Shown here: piece by piece, positions 1 through 11,781 of the stretch
How the letters are laid out: each line of letters begins with the position of its first letter
Position numbering within the stretch: position 1 is the first letter of the stretch
NCBI GenBank assembly: GCA_002686955.1
Contig: NYZA01000195.1
Span: 1-11,998 of the forward strand
DNA length: 11,998 nt
Source: Gemmatimonadota bacterium
GTDB taxonomy: Bacteria > GCA-2686955
Reading direction: 5' to 3'
The notes under the pieces: generated by a model
What the model saw: only the letters and a program-made list of their open reading frames with translations
What the model was told of the DNA's origin: nothing
Databases searched by the model: none
Program-made: the position numbers and the translations under genes

Positions 1-401
1 CAGCGGCGCAGCAGGATCGGAGATGCGTTGTGCAGATCGTGCAGGCTCACGCCCGCGGTGGCCTCGGCGATCGCCAGGAGCCGCTCGGAGAGATCGACGG
101 AGAGCGCTGCATCGGATGTCGGGATGGTGGCGATCGACCGCGGGCCGAGCTCCGGGTCGAAGATCCGCACCCCCGCCCAGTCGCAGGCGACCGCGACGCG
201 CCCCGCGTCGGCCGCGAGATCGCGCACGATTCCATCGATCTGTATGCGGATCGGCTCGCGGCCGAGATTCCCGGCTACGACCGTGTGGCCACCACCGCCG
301 ACGACGAGATCGCCGCACCAGGTCACGCGCGTACATTCCCACGACGATGCCGTCTGCGCCGCGAGAACGAGCGTTGCCGCAAGTCCGATCGATGTTGTCA
401 T
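1..401 (-). CDS. Exported LVIVD-like beta-propeller protein, N-terminal part (runs off left edge)
   Basis: This is the first 133 codons of a gene read leftward with no stop before the window edge. The protein opens with a signal peptide: MTTS, then a hydrophobic stretch (IGLAATLVLAA) and a likely cleavage site near QTASS-W, so it should be exported. The mature part shows short repeats of the kind 'GRVAVACDWAGVRIFDPE' and 'ERLLAIAEATAGVSLHDL', each a strand pair ending in a hydrophobic-D motif. These resemble the LVIVD repeats of secreted bacterial propellers, which usually carry many copies, so most of the gene lies outside. The ATG overlaps the stop of the upstream beta-helix gene (ATGA), and a purine-rich GGGAGAGGTGAG sits directly before it, so the two are probably translationally coupled. 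Binding partner and substrate cannot be inferred. The reading frame is certain; the family assignment is moderate. Confidence 0.72.
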   Translation of the reverse strand, partial: MTTSIGLAATLVLAAQTASSWECTRVTWCGDLVVGGGGHTVVAGNLGREPIRIQIDGIVRDLAADAGRVAVACDWAGVRIFDPELGPRSIATIPTSDAALSVDLSERLLAIAEATAGVSLHDLHNASPILLRR

Positions 402-3196
402 CTCACCTCTCCCGCATCATCGGCTGCGATGAGCAACCACTCGTCGTTGTCCGGTCCGCCGTATGCCCCCATGTCGCCCCGAACTCCGTTCGGCACGTTC
501 GGCGGCCACCAGGGATGCCGGTCGTAGATCTCGTCCTCGACCTCGGGATCGCCCGCGTCGATCGCGGGTGAGCCGGGGCCGAGAAGGTAGTCGAGTCCCC
601 CGTAGGATAGGAAAACCGGATCGCCGTCGATGTTGCCGTCTCCCTGCCACCCTCCCTCGACCAGGCTGTAGCTCACCTTCACCGAGTAGAAGGGCTCAGG
701 GCCGATTTCGGGACCTTCGTTTCCCCAGACGATGCTGTTGATCACCCGCGCGTAGCCGCCGCCCGGCGGCACAGAGATCCCGGCGCCGACCTCGGCCCGG
801 TTGCCCGTGATCGTGACGCCGTCGACCTCGGTGGTGTTTACGGCGGAGCGCAGGCCCCCGCCGCTATCCGCCGAGTTGCCGATGAGGAGTGTGCGTGCGA
901 TCTCTCCTCCGTCGAGGTACACTCCTCCGCCTCCGAGCGTGGCGACGTTGTTTCGTACGATGCAGTGACGAATGGTGCAGCCGGAACCGTAGATCCCACC
1001 GGCGTCGAGCGATGCGCGGCTCGCCGTGATGATGCATCGATCGATCTCAGCGATTCCAGTCCTCAGTCCACCGCCGGTCCGCGCTCTGTTGCCGAGGAAC
1101 TCGCAATCTCGGATCGTCGAGATCGACGCGTCCCGATAGCCGCCCCCGTCCTTGCCCGCGCGGTTTCCGATGAAGCGGCAGGCTTCAACCTCGAGCCTGT
1201 ACCCGGAGGCGCCCCCTCCGTTTCGGTCCGCCGAGTTCCGGAGGAAGACACAATCTTCTAGACGCAGATCGATTTCATCGGAATGAAGCCAGAGACCCCC
1301 TCCATCCAGCGAAGCATGGTTGCGATCGAAAAGGGTCCGGCTGATGATCGGCGTGCCGCCGCTCCCCCCGATTCCCCCGCCCGATCCGCTGCTGCGGTTG
1401 CCTACGATCGCGCAGCGAACGATCCTCGGCGAGGCGTTGGGCCGGCAAGCGATGCCGCCGCCTTCTTCTCCCGCGCCTCCGGTGATCGTCAGACCTTCAA
1501 CCCGAGGGTGTCTCCCTCCGGTGTCTTCGGCTTCGATCACCGGCCCCTCGCCCCGCGCATCGATCACGGTCGCGGCGATCACCGTCGGATCGAAAGGCGC
1601 GGTACCGGTCAGAACGACCTCTCGGTCGCTCAGCTGCAGACCCGATTCGGTGTAGGTTCCGGGCGCGACCAAAACGGTGTCTCCATCGCAAAGATCGGCC
1701 GACAGCGCCTCTTCGATCGTGCCGACATCTTCCGGCACCCGGATCGTGTGCATCCCGATGCGGGCATCACAGCCCAGCCCCCGGGCGCCCATATCGCTGC
1801 CGCTCTCACCGCTTCCCAGACAGGGGGATGCCGGCGCCAGCGTCAAGCTCCCGATCTCACCGCAGCCGCTCTCGCAGAAGAGGGGGTAGCTGTCGATATT
1901 GCCCTCGCCCGGCCAGCCCCCGTGGATGTCGCTGTACGATGCGAACACCTCTTCCCTTTCGCCTGCGATCGCTTCGGAGCCGTTCCCCCAAACGATGGAA
2001 CTCGTGATTTCAGTCCGTGAATACCCGTAGTTGTAGACGCGGTAGAATGCGGCTCCATTGTAGGTGCCGAAGTTAGCCACGACGGTGCAGTGATCGACGA
2101 ACGCGTCGGCGACAGCTTCGCAGTGGATCGCTCCGCCACGTGTTCCGGAGTTCTCCGTGAAAAGGCTGTAGTCGAGCCGGATCTCCTGACCTCCTTGGTA
2201 GATGCCTCCGCCGCTGCCGCCGGCCGTATTTCGCTCTATCGAGCAGTGGCTCATAGTCTGGGATCCGCTGCCGTAGTACCCCCCGCCATCATCTTCCGCC
2301 GTGTTGTCGGCGAGTCGACACCGGACGGCGCTGCCGGAGACGCCGTAGAGTCCGCCGCCACGCCACGCGGAGTTGCCCGAGATTTCACACTCCATGAGCG
2401 CGGCCGTTGACGCGGAGGGGTCTCCGCCGATCCCACCCCCGCGCTCGGCCCGATTGCCGCGAATTCGACAGCGCTCGAGCGTCAGAGAAGACCATTGGGT
2501 AGCGGAAACACCGCCGCCTCTATAATCCGCCACGTTCGACTCCACCACGCAGCCGATCAGCTCCGCGTTCGATTCCCAGAACGTGCCTACGCCACCCCCG
2601 CTCCAGGCCCGATTGTCGCGAATTCCGCAGTTGCGAATCGATGCCGACGACCAGTCGCAGAGGATTCCCCCCCCGTCCTCTTCCGCGGAGTTTCTTTCGA
2701 TGCGACATTTTTCGATGGTCGGCGCCGCGAGAAAACAGGAGATGCCACCACCATGCCCAAGTGATCGATTGTCGCGAATAAAGCAGCGACGGATCGTCGG
2801 CCCGGTGTCGGGACGGCAAGTTATCCCTCCTCCGCGCGACTCGGTTCCGATCTCTCCCAGGCCTCCGGTGACGGTCAAGCCGTCGAGCACGCTCGTCGTG
2901 TCTTCGAAGCTGTGAAAGAGAAAGACCGTTCCGCGTTCGCGGCCGTCGACGACCGTGGAGGCCACGACCGCCGGGTCGTCCGGCGCCGATCCGGTGACGA
3001 GGATCGCCCGCCCATCGAAGGCGATCTCATGCTCGGCATAGGTCCCGGGCAGGACCAGGACGGTGTCCCCGTCGACCGAAACGTCGATCGCTCCTTGAAT
3101 CGCGGGGAAGTCGGTCGGGACGGTGTGGACCGCGGCGCAGCAGTTCGCCGCCAGCGCCGCGGCCGCCGTCGTCGCTCCCAGGATCGATCGGCTCAT
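398..3196 (-). CDS. Secreted right-handed parallel beta-helix protein with Pmp-like GGGI rungs, tandemly duplicated
   Basis: A 932-residue exported protein. Residues 1-22 form a signal peptide (MSRS, then an Ala-rich core ending near CAA). It has two homologous halves. Each opens with a pectin-lyase-type cap: 'VPTDFPAIQGAID...DGDTVLVLPGTY' at about 26-52 and 'VPEDVGTIEEAL...DGDTVLVAPGTY' at about 487-515. Each continues with rungs of about 22-29 residues carrying C-x-[IF]-x-x-N-x-A...GGG[IVLY], about 11 in the first half and 10 in the second. Each closes with 'SIVWGN', 'YS..(H/E)GGW.G(E/D)GNID..P(V/L)F' and a 'SP' segment. The end, 'GSPAIDAGDP...GDMGAYGGP', is typical of this family. The rungs resemble chlamydial Pmp repeats, but no autotransporter barrel, LPXTG or obvious sorting tail is present. 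The likely role is surface or extracellular binding, possibly of polysaccharide; no catalytic residues are recognisable. The ATG at 3196 is preceded by a GAAGGGG ribosome site and directly by the signal peptide. Confidence 0.88.
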   Translation of the reverse strand: MSRSILGATTAAAALAANCCAAVHTVPTDFPAIQGAIDVSVDGDTVLVLPGTYAEHEIAFDGRAILVTGSAPDDPAVVASTVVDGRERGTVFLFHSFEDTTSVLDGLTVTGGLGEIGTESRGGGITCRPDTGPTIRRCFIRDNRSLGHGGGISCFLAAPTIEKCRIERNSAEEDGGGILCDWSSASIRNCGIRDNRAWSGGGVGTFWESNAELIGCVVESNVADYRGGGVSATQWSSLTLERCRIRGNRAERGGGIGGDPSASTAALMECEISGNSAWRGGGLYGVSGSAVRCRLADNTAEDDGGGYYGSGSQTMSHCSIERNTAGGSGGGIYQGGQEIRLDYSLFTENSGTRGGAIHCEAVADAFVDHCTVVANFGTYNGAAFYRVYNYGYSRTEITSSIVWGNGSEAIAGEREEVFASYSDIHGGWPGEGNIDSYPLFCESGCGEIGSLTLAPASPCLGSGESGSDMGARGLGCDARIGMHTIRVPEDVGTIEEALSADLCDGDTVLVAPGTYTESGLQLSDREVVLTGTAPFDPTVIAATVIDARGEGPVIEAEDTGGRHPRVEGLTITGGAGEEGGGIACRPNASPRIVRCAIVGNRSSGSGGGIGGSGGTPIISRTLFDRNHASLDGGGLWLHSDEIDLRLEDCVFLRNSADRNGGGASGYRLEVEACRFIGNRAGKDGGGYRDASISTIRDCEFLGNRARTGGGLRTGIAEIDRCIITASRASLDAGGIYGSGCTIRHCIVRNNVATLGGGGVYLDGGEIARTLLIGNSADSGGGLRSAVNTTEVDGVTITGNRAEVGAGISVPPGGGYARVINSIVWGNEGPEIGPEPFYSVKVSYSLVEGGWQGDGNIDGDPVFLSYGGLDYLLGPGSPAIDAGDPEVEDEIYDRHPWWPPNVPNGVRGDMGAYGGPDNDEWLLIAADDAGEVR
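402..413 (-). promoter_or_regulatory. Ribosome binding site of the LVIVD-like gene, inside the end of the beta-helix gene
   Basis: Read on the minus strand the bases are GGGAGAGGTGAG immediately before the ATG, with GGGAG about 7 bases upstream. The site lies within the last codons of the preceding gene. It fixes the start at 401 and supports translational coupling through the ATGA overlap. Confidence 0.6.
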
Positions 3197-3508: not shown

Positions 3509-4366
3509 ATGCACTTCTGTCAGGTCGAAGATGTGAGCGCAACCCCATGCATGGACCGAGGTGCGGGCGGAGACGAGTCGGCGGCGGAACTTGCTGCTCT
3601 TGTGGCGGCATTGCCCGACGCACTGATCTCGGCCATGCCGAGTGGGCGCATTCGCAGCTGGAACCCGGCCGCGGAGCGGATGTTCGGCTATCGGGCGGAG
3701 GAGGTCATCGGGCAGCCCCTTGCGCTCCTCATGCTCGACGAGCTGCGAGCGGAGGGCCGGGAGATCCTCGCCCGCATGCTCGACGGCGAGCAGGTGGCGG
3801 AGTACGAGACCGAGCGATTGACCAAGGACGGGCGTCGAATCCCAGTGCGAATCGATCTGGCTCCGATCCTCTCATCCGGCGGCGCTCTGCTCGGCAGCTC
3901 AGGAATCGTTCACGATCTTTCGGGGGTACGGCAAGCGAGGCGAAAGGCCCGCCTGCGCACCGCCAGTTTCAGATCGATCATCGAAGCCGCTCCCGTCGCG
4001 ATATGGGAAGAAGATCTGACGAATCTCAAGGCCGCTCTGGACCGCTTGGTGCCGATCCACGGCCCCGCCCTGGCGAGCCATCTCGAGAACCACCCCGAGG
4101 TCTTGAGGGAGCTGATCGAATCGGTCCGGATCCTCGATGTCAATCCCCGGGCGCTCCGGATGCATGGGGCCGGCAGCAAGGAGGAGCTGCTCGCCGGGCT
4201 CGATCGGGTATATCTGCCCGAGACGATCCCGTCCTTTCGCGAAAACTGTCTCGCCCTCGCACGAGGCGAGACACTGTTCGAGAACGAGACGGTTTACGGC
4301 AGACTCGATGGGGAAGCGATCGAGGTTCGGGTTATCTGCAACATTCCGGGCAATCCTCCCGACTAA
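3509..4366 (+). CDS. PAS-PAS sensor half of a histidine kinase, cut off by an in-frame stop
   Basis: A 285-residue sensory half. PAS 1 spans about residues 28-140 (ALPDALISAMPSGRIRSWNPAAERMFGY, then the KDGR strand and a GIVHDLS end). PAS 2 spans about 150-285 and is the variant starting 'PVAIWEEDL' with a helical insert before 'VRILDVNPRAL'. The frame ends in TAA after 'GNPPD', just short of the last PAS strand. After the stop the same frame continues SRAVVIVDDIGALRRA, exactly the missing strand and linker, then after a TAG reaches the HisKA domain. This is therefore the front of one kinase gene, not a complete protein. No transmembrane segment is visible, so the sensor would be cytoplasmic. 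The chosen ATG follows a weak GGGG site; GTG 3533 and ATG 3551 are alternatives. The PAS ligand is unknown. If translated alone it would be a PAS-only protein without output. Confidence 0.72.
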   Translation: MHFCQVEDVSATPCMDRGAGGDESAAELAALVAALPDALISAMPSGRIRSWNPAAERMFGYRAEEVIGQPLALLMLDELRAEGREILARMLDGEQVAEYETERLTKDGRRIPVRIDLAPILSSGGALLGSSGIVHDLSGVRQARRKARLRTASFRSIIEAAPVAIWEEDLTNLKAALDRLVPIHGPALASHLENHPEVLRELIESVRILDVNPRALRMHGAGSKEELLAGLDRVYLPETIPSFRENCLALARGETLFENETVYGRLDGEAIEVRVICNIPGNPPD

Positions 4367-4423
4367 TCACGTGCCGTCGTGATCGTCGACGATATCGGTG
4401 CGCTCAGGCGGGCCGGTATCTAG
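4364..4423 (+). pseudogene. Double in-frame stop breaking the PAS-kinase gene
   Basis: The frame of the PAS half runs without shift into the kinase half but contains TAA at 4364 and TAG at 4421. The 18 codons between them read SRAVVIVDDIGALRRAGI, which matches the end of a PAS domain and its linker. The codons after the TAG, LQRRAFALTRSNAELEQF, match the coiled linker leading into HisKA. No base has been gained or lost. Together with the two flanking pieces this is one kinase frame spanning 3509-5143. Whether it is a pseudogene, a sequencing or assembly error, or read through in the cell cannot be told from the sequence. Confidence 0.75.
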
Positions 4424-4444
4424 CTGCAGCGCCGCGCCTTCGCA

Positions 4445-5143
4445 TTGACTCGCTCCAACGCCGAGTTGGAGCAGTTCGCCTACTCCGCCTCGCACGACCT
4501 GCAAGAGCCGCTCGCGGTCGTGGCCCGATTCGCCGAGTTGATCCAATCCAGATATGGTGACACTTTGGAGGGCAAGGCCGGCTCATGGCTCGGCTTCATC
4601 GTCGGCGAGACACGGCGAATGCAAGAGATGATCGACAGCTTGCTACAGCTTTCGCGGGTCTCGACCCAGCCACCTCGTTTCGAAGTGGTCGATCTGAGCT
4701 CTCTGGTGGATGAAGCGATAATGCAGCTCGAAGAAGAGATCGAGGCCTGCGGTGCCGAGGTGCGTCGAGACGAGCTCCCCACCTTGAAAGGTGACCGCGC
4801 GCTCCTGGGGAGCCTCTTCGCGAATCTTATCGCCAACGCCATCAAGTTTCGGGGCCACGACGCGCCACGCATCCACATTTCGGCCTCGTTCGACGACGAC
4901 GGTGTTTGCGCGTGCAGCGTGAGCGATAACGGAATCGGCATCGATCCGCGTTTCGCCGAGCGGGCTTTCGAGCCCTTCAAACGTCTCAACCGCCTCGAGG
5001 ACTACCCCGGATCGGGAATCGGTCTGGCACTGTGCAAGAGCGTGGTCGAGCTCCACGAGGGGCGGATCTGGGTCGAATCGGTCGAGGGACAGGGCGCCCG
5101 ATTCCACTTCACCTTGCCTCGCGATTCGGAGGGGAGGCGGTGA
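4445..5143 (+). CDS. Histidine kinase catalytic half (HisKA + HATPase), detached from its sensor by stops
   Basis: This half carries an intact kinase core. The H-box 'SHDLQEPL' has the phospho-accepting His at residue 17, counted from TTG. The N-box is 'NLIANAIKF' (Asn 131), the G1 box 'DNGIGID' (161-167), the F-box 'FEPFKRL' and the G2 box 'GSGIGLALCK' (about 189-198). The 'ASHDLQEPL' type is the soluble family often paired with Rcp1-like single-domain regulators, and such a regulator follows immediately (GTGA overlap). The reading frame is open from 4424, but the only candidate start before the H-box is the TTG at 4445, with no ribosome site in front. Independent translation of a working kinase therefore looks poor. 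All catalytic motifs remain undamaged, so the breakage is recent, the protein is rescued by readthrough, or the stops are sequence errors. The predicted reaction is ATP-dependent autophosphorylation and transfer to the neighbouring receiver. Confidence 0.72.
   Translation: MTRSNAELEQFAYSASHDLQEPLAVVARFAELIQSRYGDTLEGKAGSWLGFIVGETRRMQEMIDSLLQLSRVSTQPPRFEVVDLSSLVDEAIMQLEEEIEACGAEVRRDELPTLKGDRALLGSLFANLIANAIKFRGHDAPRIHISASFDDDGVCACSVSDNGIGIDPRFAERAFEPFKRLNRLEDYPGSGIGLALCKSVVELHEGRIWVESVEGQGARFHFTLPRDSEGRR
5128..5137 (+). promoter_or_regulatory. Strong ribosome binding site for the response regulator
   Basis: GGAGGGGAGG lies in the last codons of the kinase; its GGAGG core is 7 bases before the GTG at 5140. 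It selects this GTG as the start, and the GTGA overlap suggests coupled translation with the kinase. Confidence 0.65.
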
Positions 5144-5613
5144 GCGGCGACACGAGCCGTGATCCGCTGGCGGTCCTCCTGGTCGAAGATCACCCCGCCG
5201 AGGTCGAGCTGATCGGGGATATCGCGCGGCGCTGTGCCGTCTCCGTTCGGCTGCAGGTCGCGAGTGACGGAGAGGAAGCGCTGGCCCAGCTTGCCGATAT
5301 CGGCGATTCCGATGCACCCGATCTCGTCGTGCTCGATCTGAACCTGCCCCGGATGGATGGGCGCGAGCTGTTGGAGCGACTGCAGGCCGATCGGGCGCTG
5401 CGCTCGATTCCGGTGGTCGTGTTCTCCTCTTCCAGTGCCGCGGACGACGTTCAGAGCGCCTATGGGGCCGGAGCCAGCTTCTACCTGGTCAAGCCTCGAA
5501 CGCTCGCCGATTTCACCGCCGAAGTGGAGCGCCTCTTCGAGTTCTGGAGCGGCGCGGTTCTTTCGCCTCGGCCGGAGCTGCCGATCGCCCCGAGGCGTCC
5601 CACCCTCCGCTAG
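5140..5613 (+). CDS. Rcp1/CheY-like single-domain response regulator
   Basis: A 157-residue receiver domain with no DNA-binding or enzymatic output. The acidic pair is Glu16-Asp17 (LLVEDHP), the phospho-accepting Asp66 sits in 'VVLDLNLPRMDG', the Ser/Thr switch is at about Ser96 (VVVFSSSS), the aromatic switch is Tyr115, and the conserved Lys118 is in 'YLVKP'. All residues needed for phosphorylation are present. 'VED.PAEVELI', 'LPRMDGRELL' and 'SAYGAGASFYLVKP' are typical of the Rcp1 type, which receives phosphate from 'SHDLQEPL' kinases like the one encoded immediately upstream and acts through protein-protein contact. The last ~22 residues, rich in Pro and Arg, extend beyond the fold. The GTG start overlaps the kinase stop and has a strong GGAGG site, so translation may depend on ribosomes reaching the kinase end. 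If the kinase is dead, this regulator is an orphan. Confidence 0.88.
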   Translation: MSGDTSRDPLAVLLVEDHPAEVELIGDIARRCAVSVRLQVASDGEEALAQLADIGDSDAPDLVVLDLNLPRMDGRELLERLQADRALRSIPVVVFSSSSAADDVQSAYGAGASFYLVKPRTLADFTAEVERLFEFWSGAVLSPRPELPIAPRRPTLR

Positions 5614-5690
5614 AGATCCGGGTTAGGGTGGCAGAGCCGGTTATCCCTCTCTCCGCCCGTTGCGGCGAAAGCCCCAGAAAGCGAGACGCC

Positions 5691-8669
5691 ATGCCCAGAC
5701 CGATCGTGTCCAAACACGCCAAGACCAGATTCGTCACAGGCCTGATCACGCTCTCCTCTGTGAGCGCCTGGTCGCTCGCCCCGGCCGCCGACCTTGCCCT
5801 GCCGAACCACCGCCGGGTCGAGATCCGGGCGAATACTTTCACGGGCAACCTGCAGGAGCGATCCGCCCTCGCCGTAGATCGCTCCGGGAAACTCCTCGCG
5901 GTCTGGGCCAGCCGCCGACAAGAGGCGGGCACTTACGGCGTCTTCGCGCAGCGATTCGATCCTCTCGGCCGACCCCTCGGAACCGAAATCCACGTCAACC
6001 AGTTCCTCCCCAGCGCCCAGAGCTTCCCCGCTTCGGCCTTCGACCCGGAGGGCAGTGCCTGGATCGTCTGGCAATCGGCGGCGCAAGACGGCAGCGGGTC
6101 GGGCGTGTATCTGAGGCGCTTCGGCCTCGTCGATGGCGTCTTCGGGCCGCTGGGCGAGGAGCAGCTCGTCAACATCACCACCGCGGGCGACCAGTTTCAG
6201 CCGAGTGTGCTCTGCGGCCGGGGGGGCGGTGCGCTGGTCGCGTGGTCTTCGGTGAACGATCGATCGGAGACCCGCATCGTCGCGCGTCTGTACCGGTCCG
6301 ACGGATCGCCGGCTAGCGGTGAGCTTCAGCTGAGCGCCGAATCCGCTCGGGGCCGGGATCACCTGCCCTCGATCGCCCACGCCGGGGGAGGAGAGGGCTT
6401 CCTCGTTGCCTGGGCCCACACCACGCCCGATCACCATCCCGGCGCCATCATCGGCCGCTTCGTCGAGCCGGGGACGGGACCGAGCGGGGAGCCCTTCCCT
6501 ATCAGCGACCCCCTCGATACGCGCGAGCAGATCGAGCCCAGCATCGCGGGCGGCCCCAGGGGTGAGCTGGTTTGCGCGTGGATGCGCTCGCGCGAAGCGG
6601 CCGATGGCTACGATATCGTCGCTCGTCGGATCGGTGCCGCAGGGGAGGCGATCGGCGCGCCCTTCGTGGTGGCCGACCAGGCGAACGGGTGGCGGAGCGG
6701 TGTGGCGATCGCCATGGCCGAGGACGGTCGGTTTGCCATCTCGTACAACGAAGACGGCACCAAGGAACAGCACACCCATCGCCATCGACCCGTGACGCCT
6801 TCGACCCTCTTCGCTCGACTCTACGATCGCTCGGCGAATCCCCAGGGCGAGGCGTTTCGCGTGAATCGCGACGGCGAGGGCAGGCATGCACACCCCGCCG
6901 CTTCGAACGCCGCGCGCTCCGTCTGGAGCGCCCAAGATCAGCTTGCCTTCGTCTGGGACGGCCATGTCGGCGGTGATCGGTCCGGAACCGGCCTGACACT
7001 CTTCACGCCCGAGAGCCTGCGCGCGCCCGATCCGCCCGAGACGGAGCCGCGCGCGGCGGCTGTGGAGACGCAGGGAAGAGACCTGAAAACGGCGCCCGAT
7101 TTCGATCCGGATTGGATCGCCCAACCCTCCGCGCAAGACCTCGACGCCGCGGGACCGGACTTCGGCTTCATGGCCTTTCAGACCACCGGTTGGCAGCCTC
7201 CAGACCCCGATTGCGCGGCTGGCGCCGGCCACATCGTCTCGGTCGTCAATATGACCCTTCGGGTGCACACCAAGGAGGGCACGCTGGTATCGGACGAGCT
7301 CTTGGAGGACTTTTTCGCGGCTACGAGCGGCGGCGATTTCCTCTTCGATCCGGTCGCTCTCCACGACCACCATGCGGATCGTTTCGTGATCGCCACCGCG
7401 GATCATCAGGGCAGTCAGGATGGACTGAATGTCGCGGTTTCGCGGTCGAACGATCCGGCCGACGGTTGGCACAAATACTATTTCGACACCGACGCGATCG
7501 GCGATTTCATCGATTTCGAAAATCTCGGCGTCGGCGTCGATGCGTACTACATTACGGCCGACTACTTCGGATCCTGGCGAAATGTGATTCACATCCTGGA
7601 GAAGACCCCGATGTTGAGCGGGGATCCAGTCACGCTTCGCCATCACCGAACCGCGAATACTGCTCTCTCATTGGGGGCGGTCAAATCGTACGATCCCGCC
7701 GCGCCGGCCCAGTATTTCGCCTCGTCCTGGATCTCGTCGACCAAGATCAGGGTCTACGCTCTGCGCGATCCCCTGGGGAGTCCGATCGTCGATTCGTACG
7801 ATGTAACGGTTCCCTTCTTCACCAATCCGCCCGATGCTACCCAGAAGGGGTCGTCCAACAAGGTGTCCACAATAGATGACAGAATCAAGAACGGGGTCTA
7901 TCGGGCAGGATCGCTCTGGCTGACACACAGCATCGGCGAGAACAGCACCGCGCGCGTCCGCTGGTACGAGATCGCTATGAACGGTTGGCCGGTCAGCGAA
8001 GGCAATCCCGCTCTCGAGCAAAGCGGCACGTTGAACTTCGGAAGCGGGGAGCACAACTGGTTCCCCGACGTTAGCGTGAGCGATGACGGCGATGCGATCA
8101 TAACCTGCAGCCGATCGTCATCGAACGACTATCCCTACATCGCTCGTGCCGGGCGAAAATCGTACGACGCGTCCTCCACTTTCCGGCATTCGGTCCGCTT
8201 GAAAGAGAGCGATGGTCCGACCACCAGCGACCGTTGGGGTGACTACAGCGGAAACGACGAAGATCCGATCGATCCCGGTGTGGTTTGGAGTCACGCGATC
8301 TATAACACGACCGGATCGAACTGGCGCACCTGGGTCGCCAGGGTGGACACCGATAATCTGATGGTTCTCGACGACCCCGGTCCCCTGACGCGGGGAGCTA
8401 ACGCGACGATCACACTGCGGGGGGCCAAGGCTTCGGGCACCATCCATGTCGCTTACAGCCTGAGCGGCCCGGGAGAGACCGATGTTCCGCAACTGGACGC
8501 GACGCTCGATCTTGCCGACGCGGAATCGGCGGGCTCGACCGCCGCGGCGCCGGACGGCAGCGTCACATTTGGCGCCTTCGTGCCTGCTTCCGCGCCGGTG
8601 GGCCCCATCTATATCCAGGTTATCGAACAGAACAACACCTCGAATCTGATCGCGACGACCATAGAGTAG
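5691..8669 (+). CDS. Large exported beta-propeller-rich protein of unknown function
   Basis: A 992-residue protein with a signal peptide (basic MPRPIVSKHAKTR, hydrophobic VTGLITLSSVSAWSL, likely cleavage after APA). A GTG at 5628 would add 21 residues ahead of it, so the ATG at 5691 is preferred. Residues about 44-440 hold roughly seven repeats of 50-60 residues: hydrophobic-AW at the strand core, 'v.ARrf...G.p.G..f.v' at the end, often closing in VN (TEIHVN, EEQLVN, EAFRVN). This suggests a seven-bladed propeller. About 440-490 is a Pro/Ala/Asp-rich linker. About 490-890 is a second region with 'FLFDPVALHDHHADRFVIA', 'VAVSRSNDPADGWHKY' and 'WGDYSGNDEDPIDPGVVW'. It resembles propeller-like domains of uncharacterised secreted proteins. 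About 895-992 is a beta-rich Ig-like tail. No catalytic motif, anchor or secretion tag is recognised. It lies 77 bases after the regulator and 20 before the kinase remnant, in the same orientation. The likely location is extracellular or periplasmic. Confidence 0.85.
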   Translation: MPRPIVSKHAKTRFVTGLITLSSVSAWSLAPAADLALPNHRRVEIRANTFTGNLQERSALAVDRSGKLLAVWASRRQEAGTYGVFAQRFDPLGRPLGTEIHVNQFLPSAQSFPASAFDPEGSAWIVWQSAAQDGSGSGVYLRRFGLVDGVFGPLGEEQLVNITTAGDQFQPSVLCGRGGGALVAWSSVNDRSETRIVARLYRSDGSPASGELQLSAESARGRDHLPSIAHAGGGEGFLVAWAHTTPDHHPGAIIGRFVEPGTGPSGEPFPISDPLDTREQIEPSIAGGPRGELVCAWMRSREAADGYDIVARRIGAAGEAIGAPFVVADQANGWRSGVAIAMAEDGRFAISYNEDGTKEQHTHRHRPVTPSTLFARLYDRSANPQGEAFRVNRDGEGRHAHPAASNAARSVWSAQDQLAFVWDGHVGGDRSGTGLTLFTPESLRAPDPPETEPRAAAVETQGRDLKTAPDFDPDWIAQPSAQDLDAAGPDFGFMAFQTTGWQPPDPDCAAGAGHIVSVVNMTLRVHTKEGTLVSDELLEDFFAATSGGDFLFDPVALHDHHADRFVIATADHQGSQDGLNVAVSRSNDPADGWHKYYFDTDAIGDFIDFENLGVGVDAYYITADYFGSWRNVIHILEKTPMLSGDPVTLRHHRTANTALSLGAVKSYDPAAPAQYFASSWISSTKIRVYALRDPLGSPIVDSYDVTVPFFTNPPDATQKGSSNKVSTIDDRIKNGVYRAGSLWLTHSIGENSTARVRWYEIAMNGWPVSEGNPALEQSGTLNFGSGEHNWFPDVSVSDDGDAIITCSRSSSNDYPYIARAGRKSYDASSTFRHSVRLKESDGPTTSDRWGDYSGNDEDPIDPGVVWSHAIYNTTGSNWRTWVARVDTDNLMVLDDPGPLTRGANATITLRGAKASGTIHVAYSLSGPGETDVPQLDATLDLADAESAGSTAAAPDGSVTFGAFVPASAPVGPIYIQVIEQNNTSNLIATTIE

Positions 8670-8689: not shown

Positions 8690-9226
8690 GTGCAACAGGC
8701 TACGAGGCGAGACGCCACGAGCGACCCGAAGGAAGAGCGGCGGCTCGGGCGGGTGCGCGAGACGCACCTCGAACAGCTCTTCGACACCATGCACGAGGGA
8801 TTCGTGCTGGCCGAGGTCATCGTCGACGACGCTGGAAACCCGAGCGATCGGCGCTATCTCGACGTCAATCCGACCTTCGAGAGACTGGTGGGCAAGAGCC
8901 GCGACGAGGTGATCAATCGCACCGTAAGGGAGGACTTCCCCGAGGTCGACGCCACATTCGACATTCTCGCATCGCCGCAACCCAGCGGTCGCTTCACGCT
9001 GCTCTTCGTCGATGTCAGTGCGCGGGTCGAGGCGGAGCGAGAGCGGCTCGAGGCGGAACGGCGGGTACAGCCTGCTCAGCGGGTCGAGAGCCTCGGCGTC
9101 CTCGCCGGAGGCATCGTCCACGATTTCAACAATCTGCTGGTCGGTGTGCTCGGTTTCGCCGGCTTCTTGTAGAAGCCCTACAGGCGGCGGCAGTTGGCCG
9201 CCGAGCTCAAGGCGGTGTTGGGCTAG
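8690..9226 (+). pseudogene. Remnant of a PAS hybrid histidine kinase with internal deletions and a TAG
   Basis: The frame from GTG 8690 gives 160 residues to a TAG at 9170. Residues about 27-87 are the front of a PAS domain (LEQLFDTMHEGFVLAEVI, YLDVNPTFERLVG). The usual middle, some 30 residues, is missing: 'EDFPEVD' joins directly to the PAS end 'TFDILASPQPSGRFTLLFVDVSAR'. A linker and a good H-box follow (SLGVLAGGIVHDFNNLLVGVLG, His144). The sequence then jumps to 'FAGFL-stop-KPYRRRQLAAELKAVLG', ending in TAG at 9224. In hybrid kinases 'GFLQKPYR...L...VL' is the very end of the receiver domain. The whole HATPase domain and nearly all of the receiver are therefore gone, and the remaining parts are in one frame apart from the TAG, which sits where Gln is common. 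The start is uncertain, since GGAG lies too close to the GTG. Without an ATPase it cannot autophosphorylate. Confidence 0.78.
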
Positions 9227-9267
9227 GATCGGGCCGCGCGACCGAAATCACCCGCCGGCGGCGGACC

Positions 9268-10947
9268 ATGAAGCCCGATCGAAGCCCTTTCATACTTGCG
9301 GTTCTTCTGCTCCTTTGGGGAACCCACGCCGATTCCGCACTCGGCGTCGAGATCTCGTTCGAGGAGCCCTTCGCCGATCGTGATCCGATCGACGCGGCCG
9401 TAGCCGCGCTTTCTCCCTCCGCCCCCGCCGACACCATCGCCGCCCGCCTTCTGTCGGCGCTGCTCGCGCTCGGGCACGGCGAAGCGGAGGTCGCTGTCGC
9501 GCGGGACGACTCGTTCCAGCGGGCGCGCCTGAGGCCCGGTCCTATCTGGCGCCTCGGCGAGATCCGTTTCGTGGGCTCGCGCCTCTTCGAGGAATCGGAG
9601 CTTGTCGGACGGCTCGATCTGCGGCCCGGGCGACCTTTCGAGACCGGCGCCGTGGCGCGCGATCTCTCCCGCCTACTCGAGAGTTGGGGGCGACGGGGAC
9701 ATATCTTCGCCCGCTTCAAGCTCCGCCCGCGTCGCGTGGCGGACGGGCGGGTCGATCTCACCGTTGTCGTCGACGATGGGCCGCTGGTTCATCTGGGTGA
9801 GCTGAGGGCACGGGGCAACGAGACCACCGGAATCCGGACCCTGGAGCGGGCATCCGGCCTGCGCCCCGGTCGGGTGCTCGACCGGCGAGTCTTCGACCGA
9901 TCGGCGGAGCGCTTGCGCCGCCTGGGCTACTTCAGCGAGGTGCGCGGACCGGTGCTCACTCGGGGAGCGGCGGCCGACCTCGTCGATGCCGAGCTCGCGC
10001 TCGTCGAGGCCCCGACGCATTCCGCCGAGGGAGTGCTCGGCTACGCGCCGGCCGAAGAGGGGGGTGAGGATCAGCTCACCGGCTATCTCGAGCTCTCGCT
10101 GCACAACCTCTTCGGCACCGGAAGAGAGCTCGACCTGAGCTGGGAGCGGGTACGCGCCGAGGAGCTCACACTTCAGGTCCAGTGGCGGGAGCGCTGGGTC
10201 TTCGGCTCCGACGCTTCGCTGCTCGCGAGCTTCGCGCAGGTGGTCCAGGACTCGACATTCCTGGAGGATATGGTCGGCGTGGAGATCGCCTACCCGATCG
10301 GCTGGGGTTTCGATGGATCGCTCCGCTTTCGGCGTGAGCGCGTGGTCCCCGGGCGCCGGCGTGACCGACTCGCGCCCGCCCGCAGCAGTACGAGCAGCGC
10401 CGGGATAGGACTGACGCGAGACGGGCGGGACGCTCCCTGGAATCCACGGCGAGGAGTCTTGCTCGTGTCGGCCCTCGATCTTGGACGCCGCGGCAGTGAA
10501 GCCATGATCCGCGGGCGTGGGCTGGTGGAGCTGAGTCTCCCTTTGGCAAGTCGTCAGTCGTGGTTCGCCGGTCTGGATCTCATGGCGTTGGAGCCCCCGC
10601 CGGGACCGGTTCAGCTCCCCGATCTATTCCGAGTGGGCGGATCGGGCTCCCTTCGCGGCCAGCGCGAGGACGAGCTCCGGGTGCTCCGGGGTGGCATCGC
10701 AACCGGTGAGCTACGCTTCCACACCGGTGGGATGTCGAGGGTGGCGCTCTTCGTCGATGCCGCCTATCTACGGCGCGCCGAAGCCGCCGCGCAAGGAGCG
10801 CGCTTGGTGTGGCGCTCGCACGTGGGCTACGGTCTCGGCCTTCGGATCGGCTCCCGCGCCGGCTTGCTCGGCATCGATTACGGAGTAGGCGCTGGGGACT
10901 CTCCGATGAACGGCAAGATCCACCTAAGCATCCAGAATCTTTTCTAA
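9268..10947 (+). CDS. Omp85-superfamily outer-membrane protein (POTRA domains + BamA/TamA-like barrel)
   Basis: A 559-residue protein. Residues 1-26 are a signal peptide (MKPDR, core FILAVLLLLWG, cleavage around DSALG). Periplasmic POTRA-like domains follow: a degenerate one at about 28-92, one at about 95-172 (LGEIRFVGSRLF...GRPFETGAVARDLSRLLE...GHIFARF...VDLTVVVDDGP) and one at about 173-248 (LGELRARGNETT...LRRLGYFSEV). The rest, about 250-559, is a 16-strand-type beta-barrel with the 'NLFGTGREL' first-strand motif, 'TRDGRDAPWNPRRG' and the family-defining 'FRVGGSGSLRGQ' lid motif (about 454-465). It ends in 'LSIQNLF', a C-terminal Phe signal for outer-membrane assembly. Omp85 proteins insert or translocate proteins across the outer membrane. 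With two or three POTRAs it is shorter than housekeeping BamA (five) and nearer TamA-like or accessory members. ATG 9268 is preceded by a weak GGCGGA. The UbiA gene starts 12 bases downstream. Confidence 0.88.
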   Translation: MKPDRSPFILAVLLLLWGTHADSALGVEISFEEPFADRDPIDAAVAALSPSAPADTIAARLLSALLALGHGEAEVAVARDDSFQRARLRPGPIWRLGEIRFVGSRLFEESELVGRLDLRPGRPFETGAVARDLSRLLESWGRRGHIFARFKLRPRRVADGRVDLTVVVDDGPLVHLGELRARGNETTGIRTLERASGLRPGRVLDRRVFDRSAERLRRLGYFSEVRGPVLTRGAAADLVDAELALVEAPTHSAEGVLGYAPAEEGGEDQLTGYLELSLHNLFGTGRELDLSWERVRAEELTLQVQWRERWVFGSDASLLASFAQVVQDSTFLEDMVGVEIAYPIGWGFDGSLRFRRERVVPGRRRDRLAPARSSTSSAGIGLTRDGRDAPWNPRRGVLLVSALDLGRRGSEAMIRGRGLVELSLPLASRQSWFAGLDLMALEPPPGPVQLPDLFRVGGSGSLRGQREDELRVLRGGIATGELRFHTGGMSRVALFVDAAYLRRAEAAAQGARLVWRSHVGYGLGLRIGSRAGLLGIDYGVGAGDSPMNGKIHLSIQNLF

Positions 10948-10959
10948 AAGCTCGCGCCC

Positions 10960-11781
10960 ATGCTCTCTTCGCTCTTGGAGCTGACCCGCCCGATCAACTG
11001 TGCCATCACCGCGGTGGCGGTGGCGCTCGGGGCGTTGCTGGCCGGGGGCGATATCGCCTTCTCGGCTTGGGTTCTGGCGATGGCCTCGGCCGCGCTCGTG
11101 GCGGCGTCCGGGAACATCTTCAACGATGTGATCGATCTCGAGATCGATCGGCTGAACCGCCCGGATCGTCCATTGCCGAACGGCCGGGTAGGCAGAGGCG
11201 CGGCCACGGTCCTCGGCGCTCTCGCCGGCGCGCTGGGAGCTGCTTGTGCCTACTGGATCGGTCCCGTCCATCTGACTCTGTCGCTCTGCGTGCTGGTGGC
11301 GCTGGTGGTGTATGACCGTTGGCTCAAAGGGGTCGCCGTCGTGGGCAACCTTGTCGTGAGCGGGGCGGCGGCTCTTGCCCTCCCATACGGGGGGCTCCTC
11401 GGCGACGCATGGTCGGAAACCCTGGTGCCATCGATCTTCGCCTTTTGTCTGCACATGGCACGAGAGATCATCAAGGATGTCGAGGACATGGATGGCGATC
11501 GTCTGGTCGGAGCGAGGACGCTTCCGGTTCGAGTCGGTCGCTACCGGTCCCTTTCCGTCGCGATCTACTGGCTTTTCGCGCTCGTCGTATTGACGCCGCT
11601 ACCACACCTGCTCGGCTGGTACGGACTGGCCTATATGAGACTCGTCATCCTCCTCGATGCCGCGTGTATCGCGATCATGATCTCTCTGCATCGCAATCCA
11701 TTTCGAGGGGGACTCTCGCGGGCATCGAACGGTTTGAAGGGACTGATGCTCTTGGGAATCCTCGCGGTCTATCTGGGTTGA
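10960..11781 (+). CDS. UbiA-family prenyltransferase, most like digeranylgeranylglyceryl-phosphate synthase
   Basis: A 273-residue, almost entirely hydrophobic membrane protein with about eight or nine helices, the normal size for UbiA enzymes. Both Asp-rich motifs that bind the Mg-prenyl diphosphate are intact: N55-D56-x2-D59-x3-D63 in 'NDVIDLEIDRLNRPDRPLPNG', and D173-x2-D176-x3-D180 in 'KDVEDMDGDRLVGARTLPV'. The N-terminus 'LTRPINCAITAVAVALGALLAG', the 'NRPDRPLPNG' loop and 'YDRWLKGVAVVGNLVVS' resemble the archaeal-type enzyme that adds the second geranylgeranyl chain to geranylgeranylglyceryl phosphate. Related members transfer prenyl or phytyl chains to quinone, chlorophyll or heme precursors. 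The specific substrate is an inference; UbiA membership is secure. The gene follows the Omp85 gene after 12 bases and probably shares its transcript. No clear ribosome site is visible before the ATG, but the start begins the first helix region correctly. Confidence 0.85.
   Translation: MLSSLLELTRPINCAITAVAVALGALLAGGDIAFSAWVLAMASAALVAASGNIFNDVIDLEIDRLNRPDRPLPNGRVGRGAATVLGALAGALGAACAYWIGPVHLTLSLCVLVALVVYDRWLKGVAVVGNLVVSGAAALALPYGGLLGDAWSETLVPSIFAFCLHMAREIIKDVEDMDGDRLVGARTLPVRVGRYRSLSVAIYWLFALVVLTPLPHLLGWYGLAYMRLVILLDAACIAIMISLHRNPFRGGLSRASNGLKGLMLLGILAVYLG

Follow-up and report, generated by a model that had tools for sequence, protein, structure and literature searches.

Histidine kinases divided between separate proteins are known from CheA3-CheA4 of Rhodobacter sphaeroides (PMC3591291) and from Hik36-Hik43 of Synechocystis (PMC7656254), both of which are CheA-type systems in which each protein carries whole domains. 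In-frame stop codons have been reported to be widespread in bacterial genes, many of which nevertheless keep a dN/dS below 1, and a large survey suspected many such stops to be artefacts (PMC7918605). Bacterial pseudogenes that arise by nonsense substitution carry premature in-frame stops in place of sense codons, within a frame that can still be recognised. The histidine kinase gene described here, interrupted by two in-frame stops, resembles these pseudogenes and, like them, has a degraded neighbour. It differs from typical examples in that its frame is still unshifted and its kinase motifs are all intact, which points to an early stage.

If both of its halves were made, the gene would resemble CheA3-CheA4 and Hik36-Hik43 in having kinase functions on separate reading frames; however, its PAS fold is cut and there is no good second start. 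Like the surveyed genes under purifying selection, it is interrupted in frame although the coding frame itself is conserved, but those genes have one stop whereas this one has two, whose conservation is seen in no relative. The closest counterpart is a PAS-HisKA-HATPase_c kinase (L128) with the same domain order, an SHDLQEPL H-box, the N, G1, F and G2 boxes and an overlapping response regulator, from which the present gene differs by its two stops. We conclude that a PAS-PAS-histidine kinase gene has probably been inactivated by two point nonsense mutations, making it a fairly young pseudogene with an intact response regulator gene adjoining it. It is most likely an ordinary, fairly recently inactivated gene, not a new type of split sensor or a case of recoding.

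Results

The window, that is, the whole stretch of DNA analysed, is an entire contig (C195) of 11,998 bases from a 4.28-Mb assembly of 270 contigs that is 84.5% complete. On the forward strand, the frame that runs from ATG 3509 to the TGA at 5141-5143 has 544 codons before its final stop. Exactly two of these are stops, a TAA at 4364-4366 and a TAG at 4421-4423, in one unshifted frame as an earlier note on this DNA had described. In the same stretch there are 14 and 4 stops in the other two forward frames, and 5 in one of the reverse frames. Read through, the frame encodes a PAS-PAS-HisKA-HATPase_c protein whose PAS, HisKA and HATPase_c domains match above the Pfam cut-offs, and these domains, together with the stop counts of the other frames, clearly mark 3509-5143 as a coding frame. 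Its N-terminal part (3509-4363) holds PAS1 (approximately residues 27-138) and PAS2 (from approximately residue 150), the latter as far as the TAA, as supported by Pfam PAS_9 and PAS matches, the relatives of PAS2 and the predicted fold. The 18 codons between the stops (4367-4420; SRAVVIVDDIGALRRAGI) correspond to the last PAS2 strand, the conserved Asp-Ile of a D-I-T motif, in which D295 is nearly invariant among relatives, and the start of the signalling helix, in agreement with the expectation of a PAS end and linker. The kinase part (4424-5143) consists of HisKA and HATPase_c, and its H-box, N, G1, F and G2 boxes (SASHDLQEPL, NLIANAIKF, DNGIGID, FEPFKRL and GSGIGLAL) are all read in frame, so that the motifs said to be intact are indeed so.

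The terminal TGA of the kinase overlaps the next gene, an intact single-domain response regulator on the same strand (5140-5613; Pfam Response_reg, 3.7e-21) that starts with GTG at 5140, the two genes sharing GTGA. Translational coupling had been proposed for the two genes, but the response regulator has a strong Shine-Dalgarno sequence of its own (duplex of -10.6 kcal/mol).

The structure of the read-through frame was predicted from 33 aligned sequences with a mean pLDDT of 86.6. The model matched ordinary PAS and histidine kinase structures in Foldseek, and the nearest PDB kinase domain by sequence was that of the bacteriophytochrome RpBphP2 (8f71). In the predicted fold, the TAA takes the place of residue 286, in the loop between strands 270-278 and 289-295, and so precedes the final strand of PAS2. 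The TAG takes that of residue 305, within the helix 297-349 that leads to the H-box. The break does not therefore fall exactly between sensor and kinase, as had been suggested: the first stop lies inside the PAS2 fold and the second in the helix ahead of the His that is phosphorylated, so that the two halves do not each hold a complete set of domains.

Relatives of the PAS2 domain were found in 26 of 386 genomes, 25 of them other than the present one, with no stop inside any match; relatives that share this PAS2, or the kinase domain, run without interruption. The best architectural match, L128, carries PAS2, a D-I-S linker, SNRELQQFAYIASHDLQEPL and HATPase_c in one frame, the end of which is overlapped by a response regulator gene. 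At the column of the first stop, L128 and another relative, L107, have Tyr, and several others have Trp or Tyr in the column or adjoining it. At the second, Glu occurs more often than any other residue (27 of 96 aligned matches). The alignment of homologues called for by the earlier note thus places sense residues at both sites. Among the PAS2 matches from the 386 genomes searched, no relative shares either stop, and no relative was found to be split at this point. By sequence logic, a Tyr and a Glu codon each become a stop by one base change; two would be needed if the ancestral codon at the first stop was Trp. Given these aromatic and Glu columns, both stops look like point nonsense mutations.

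A start for the kinase half was sought ahead of the H-box. The near candidates are a TTG at 4445, which has no Shine-Dalgarno sequence (+1.2 kcal/mol), and a CTG at 4424, whose duplex of -6.3 kcal/mol is within the background, since 10% of random positions reach -6.7 kcal/mol; the second kinase of the window (see below), like the response regulator, has a far stronger value (-10.2 kcal/mol). Both candidates are weak and unconvincing as a start site for the second half, which bears out the view that no good start precedes the H-box. TAA, TAG and TGA each end other genes within the window, and no suppressor tRNA was found among the 21 tRNA genes of the assembly, an incomplete set; there is thus no sign of a reassigned stop, nor, within that set, of a suppressor tRNA.

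Internal stops are absent from all 45 HATPase_c matches of the assembly. Among 64 receiver matches only one has an internal stop, a weak match at a contig edge, and none above the cut-off does. This weak match (G000:C82:95-211, reverse strand), with an internal TAG, is possibly another broken regulator gene. An alternative genetic code was rejected on these counts and on the use of all three stops as terminators by other genes of the window. A duplicate or mis-joined copy was likewise rejected, as a search of the genome against itself gave one full copy and a 73-base stretch, 73% identical, of a paralogue.

Decay of the interrupted gene is slight. All its kinase motifs are retained, its HATPase_c domain scores 96.5 bits (rank 12 of 45 in the genome, in the upper third), its codon-position GC is normal and it contains no frameshift. 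The number of conserved kinase columns in which it differs, 13 of 85, is intermediate: the 75th percentile of its relatives is 7, and a paralogue of the same genome on contig C37 differs in 20. About 3% of random substitutions in the gene would create a stop, and a modest number of neutral substitutions could account for two nonsense changes in the absence of a frameshift. Two random stops would fall within 57 nt of each other in this gene with a probability of about 0.07; their proximity, which had been called unusual, is only mildly so.

A second, more degraded hybrid kinase gene (8690-9229, forward strand) begins approximately 3.5 kb downstream of the interrupted one. Its PAS domain is about 30 residues shorter than those of its relatives. 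Its HDFNN H-box continues, without a change of frame, into the final ~20 residues of a receiver domain, KPYRRRQLAAELKAVLG, and a TAG (9170-9172) stands at the join. On contig C54 lies an intact paralogue with a matching H-box region (64% identity), an HATPase_c domain and GFIQKPYSSKKLAELIRGVL at its end. The second kinase has therefore lost the HATPase_c domain and the greater part of the receiver by deletion, although its strong Shine-Dalgarno sequence is kept. The earlier note had seen no decay elsewhere; this gene, gutted and with a TAG of its own, contradicts that. Every lesion of the second kinase keeps the frame.

Discussion

The uninterrupted relatives, the sense residues at both columns, the missing good start and the degraded neighbouring kinase make recent inactivation the best supported of the explanations offered for the two stops. 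Translation from ATG 3509 would end at TAA 4364 and yield a product of approximately 285 residues without the last PAS2 strand, the signalling helix, the phosphorylated His and the ATPase domain; with PAS2 incomplete and both H-box and HATPase_c missing, this product is devoid of parts essential to the function of the family. The TAG 57 bases further on would be a second hit without further cost, the part behind the TAA being already untranslated. This account supposes that the TAA came first and the TAG second, that the base calls are right and the stops fixed in the population, and that the kinase part is presumably not made. The simplest account is that of a kinase gene at an early stage of decay. 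With so little decay, a gene still in function, or an error in the sequence, would give nearly the same picture.

The main rival is an error of the consensus or assembly, or a mixture of strains, such that the dominant strain would have sense codons and an intact gene. The apparent origin of the sequence in a metagenome assembly, the lack of other damage to the frame and the suspicion of artefacts among in-frame stops in the large survey cited above would all suit this explanation. However, a consensus is unlikely to contain two independent substitution errors, 57 bases apart, that each create a stop, and the assembly has no second copy of the region that could have been mixed in. Moreover, the absence of interruptions from its HATPase_c matches and from its receiver matches above the cut-off indicates that errors are not general. 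We regard this explanation as unlikely. Still less probable is low-level readthrough of both stops, yielding a little full-length kinase and using the stops to lower expression. The motifs intact downstream of the stops and the many stop-containing genes with dN/dS below 1 would fit it, but two stops in series would multiply the loss, the stops are shared by no relative, and no suppressor was seen in the incomplete tRNA set. The first stop is, besides, a TAA followed by T, an efficient context for termination.

A functional split system, in which sensor and kinase fragments would be made separately and cooperate in trans, has precedents in CheA3-CheA4 and Hik36-Hik43 and would agree with the good preservation of both halves. 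Against it, the TAA cuts PAS2 before its last strand, the TAG lies inside the helix bearing the His, the kinase half has no convincing start, no relative is split at this place, and the known cases, being CheA-type, are divided between other domains. We consider it very improbable, slightly more so even than readthrough, and the functional two-protein arrangement once envisaged for this locus is disfavoured accordingly by the cut PAS fold and by the lack of a relative split there. More broadly, it appears as improbable as readthrough that the gene is by nature a split or read-through kinase whose serial stops throttle or uncouple the PAS sensor while the response regulator is fully expressed. 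What weighs against splitting and readthrough alike is where the stops lie, the lack of a good start and the failure of any relative to share the stops.

Taken as a young pseudogene, the interrupted kinase would represent a loss of signalling genes in a poorly sampled lineage, with two kinase genes damaged within 12 kb and the other kinases apparently intact. For annotation, it implies that 3509-5143 should be treated as one broken gene and not as a short sensor followed by a short kinase. Were the stops conserved and translated through, stop-regulated kinases could be studied in this gene; nothing found points there.

Genomic context

In the only other genome of the phylum among those searched (the sister genome G001), neither the PAS2 domain nor the kinase locus has an ortholog. 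Downstream of the second kinase, the contig carries an Omp85/POTRA gene and, after it, one for a UbiA prenyltransferase (9268-11781, forward strand). The Omp85-UbiA order is common to the sister genome, where the pair (L153, L152) lies on two contigs overlapping by 145 bases (C564, C97) and shows 58% and 66% identity; the upstream content differs. The kinase, the response regulator, the second kinase and a gene for a 1013-aa protein are absent beside the pair in that genome, and the absence of the two kinases and the regulator fits a dispensable segment. The 1013-aa protein, probably secreted and without a Pfam match at E 0.1, is encoded at 5628-8669 on the forward strand, between the response regulator and the second kinase. 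Upstream of the interrupted kinase, the reverse strand encodes a 932-aa right-handed beta-helix protein with Chlam_PMP-type repeats (398-3196).
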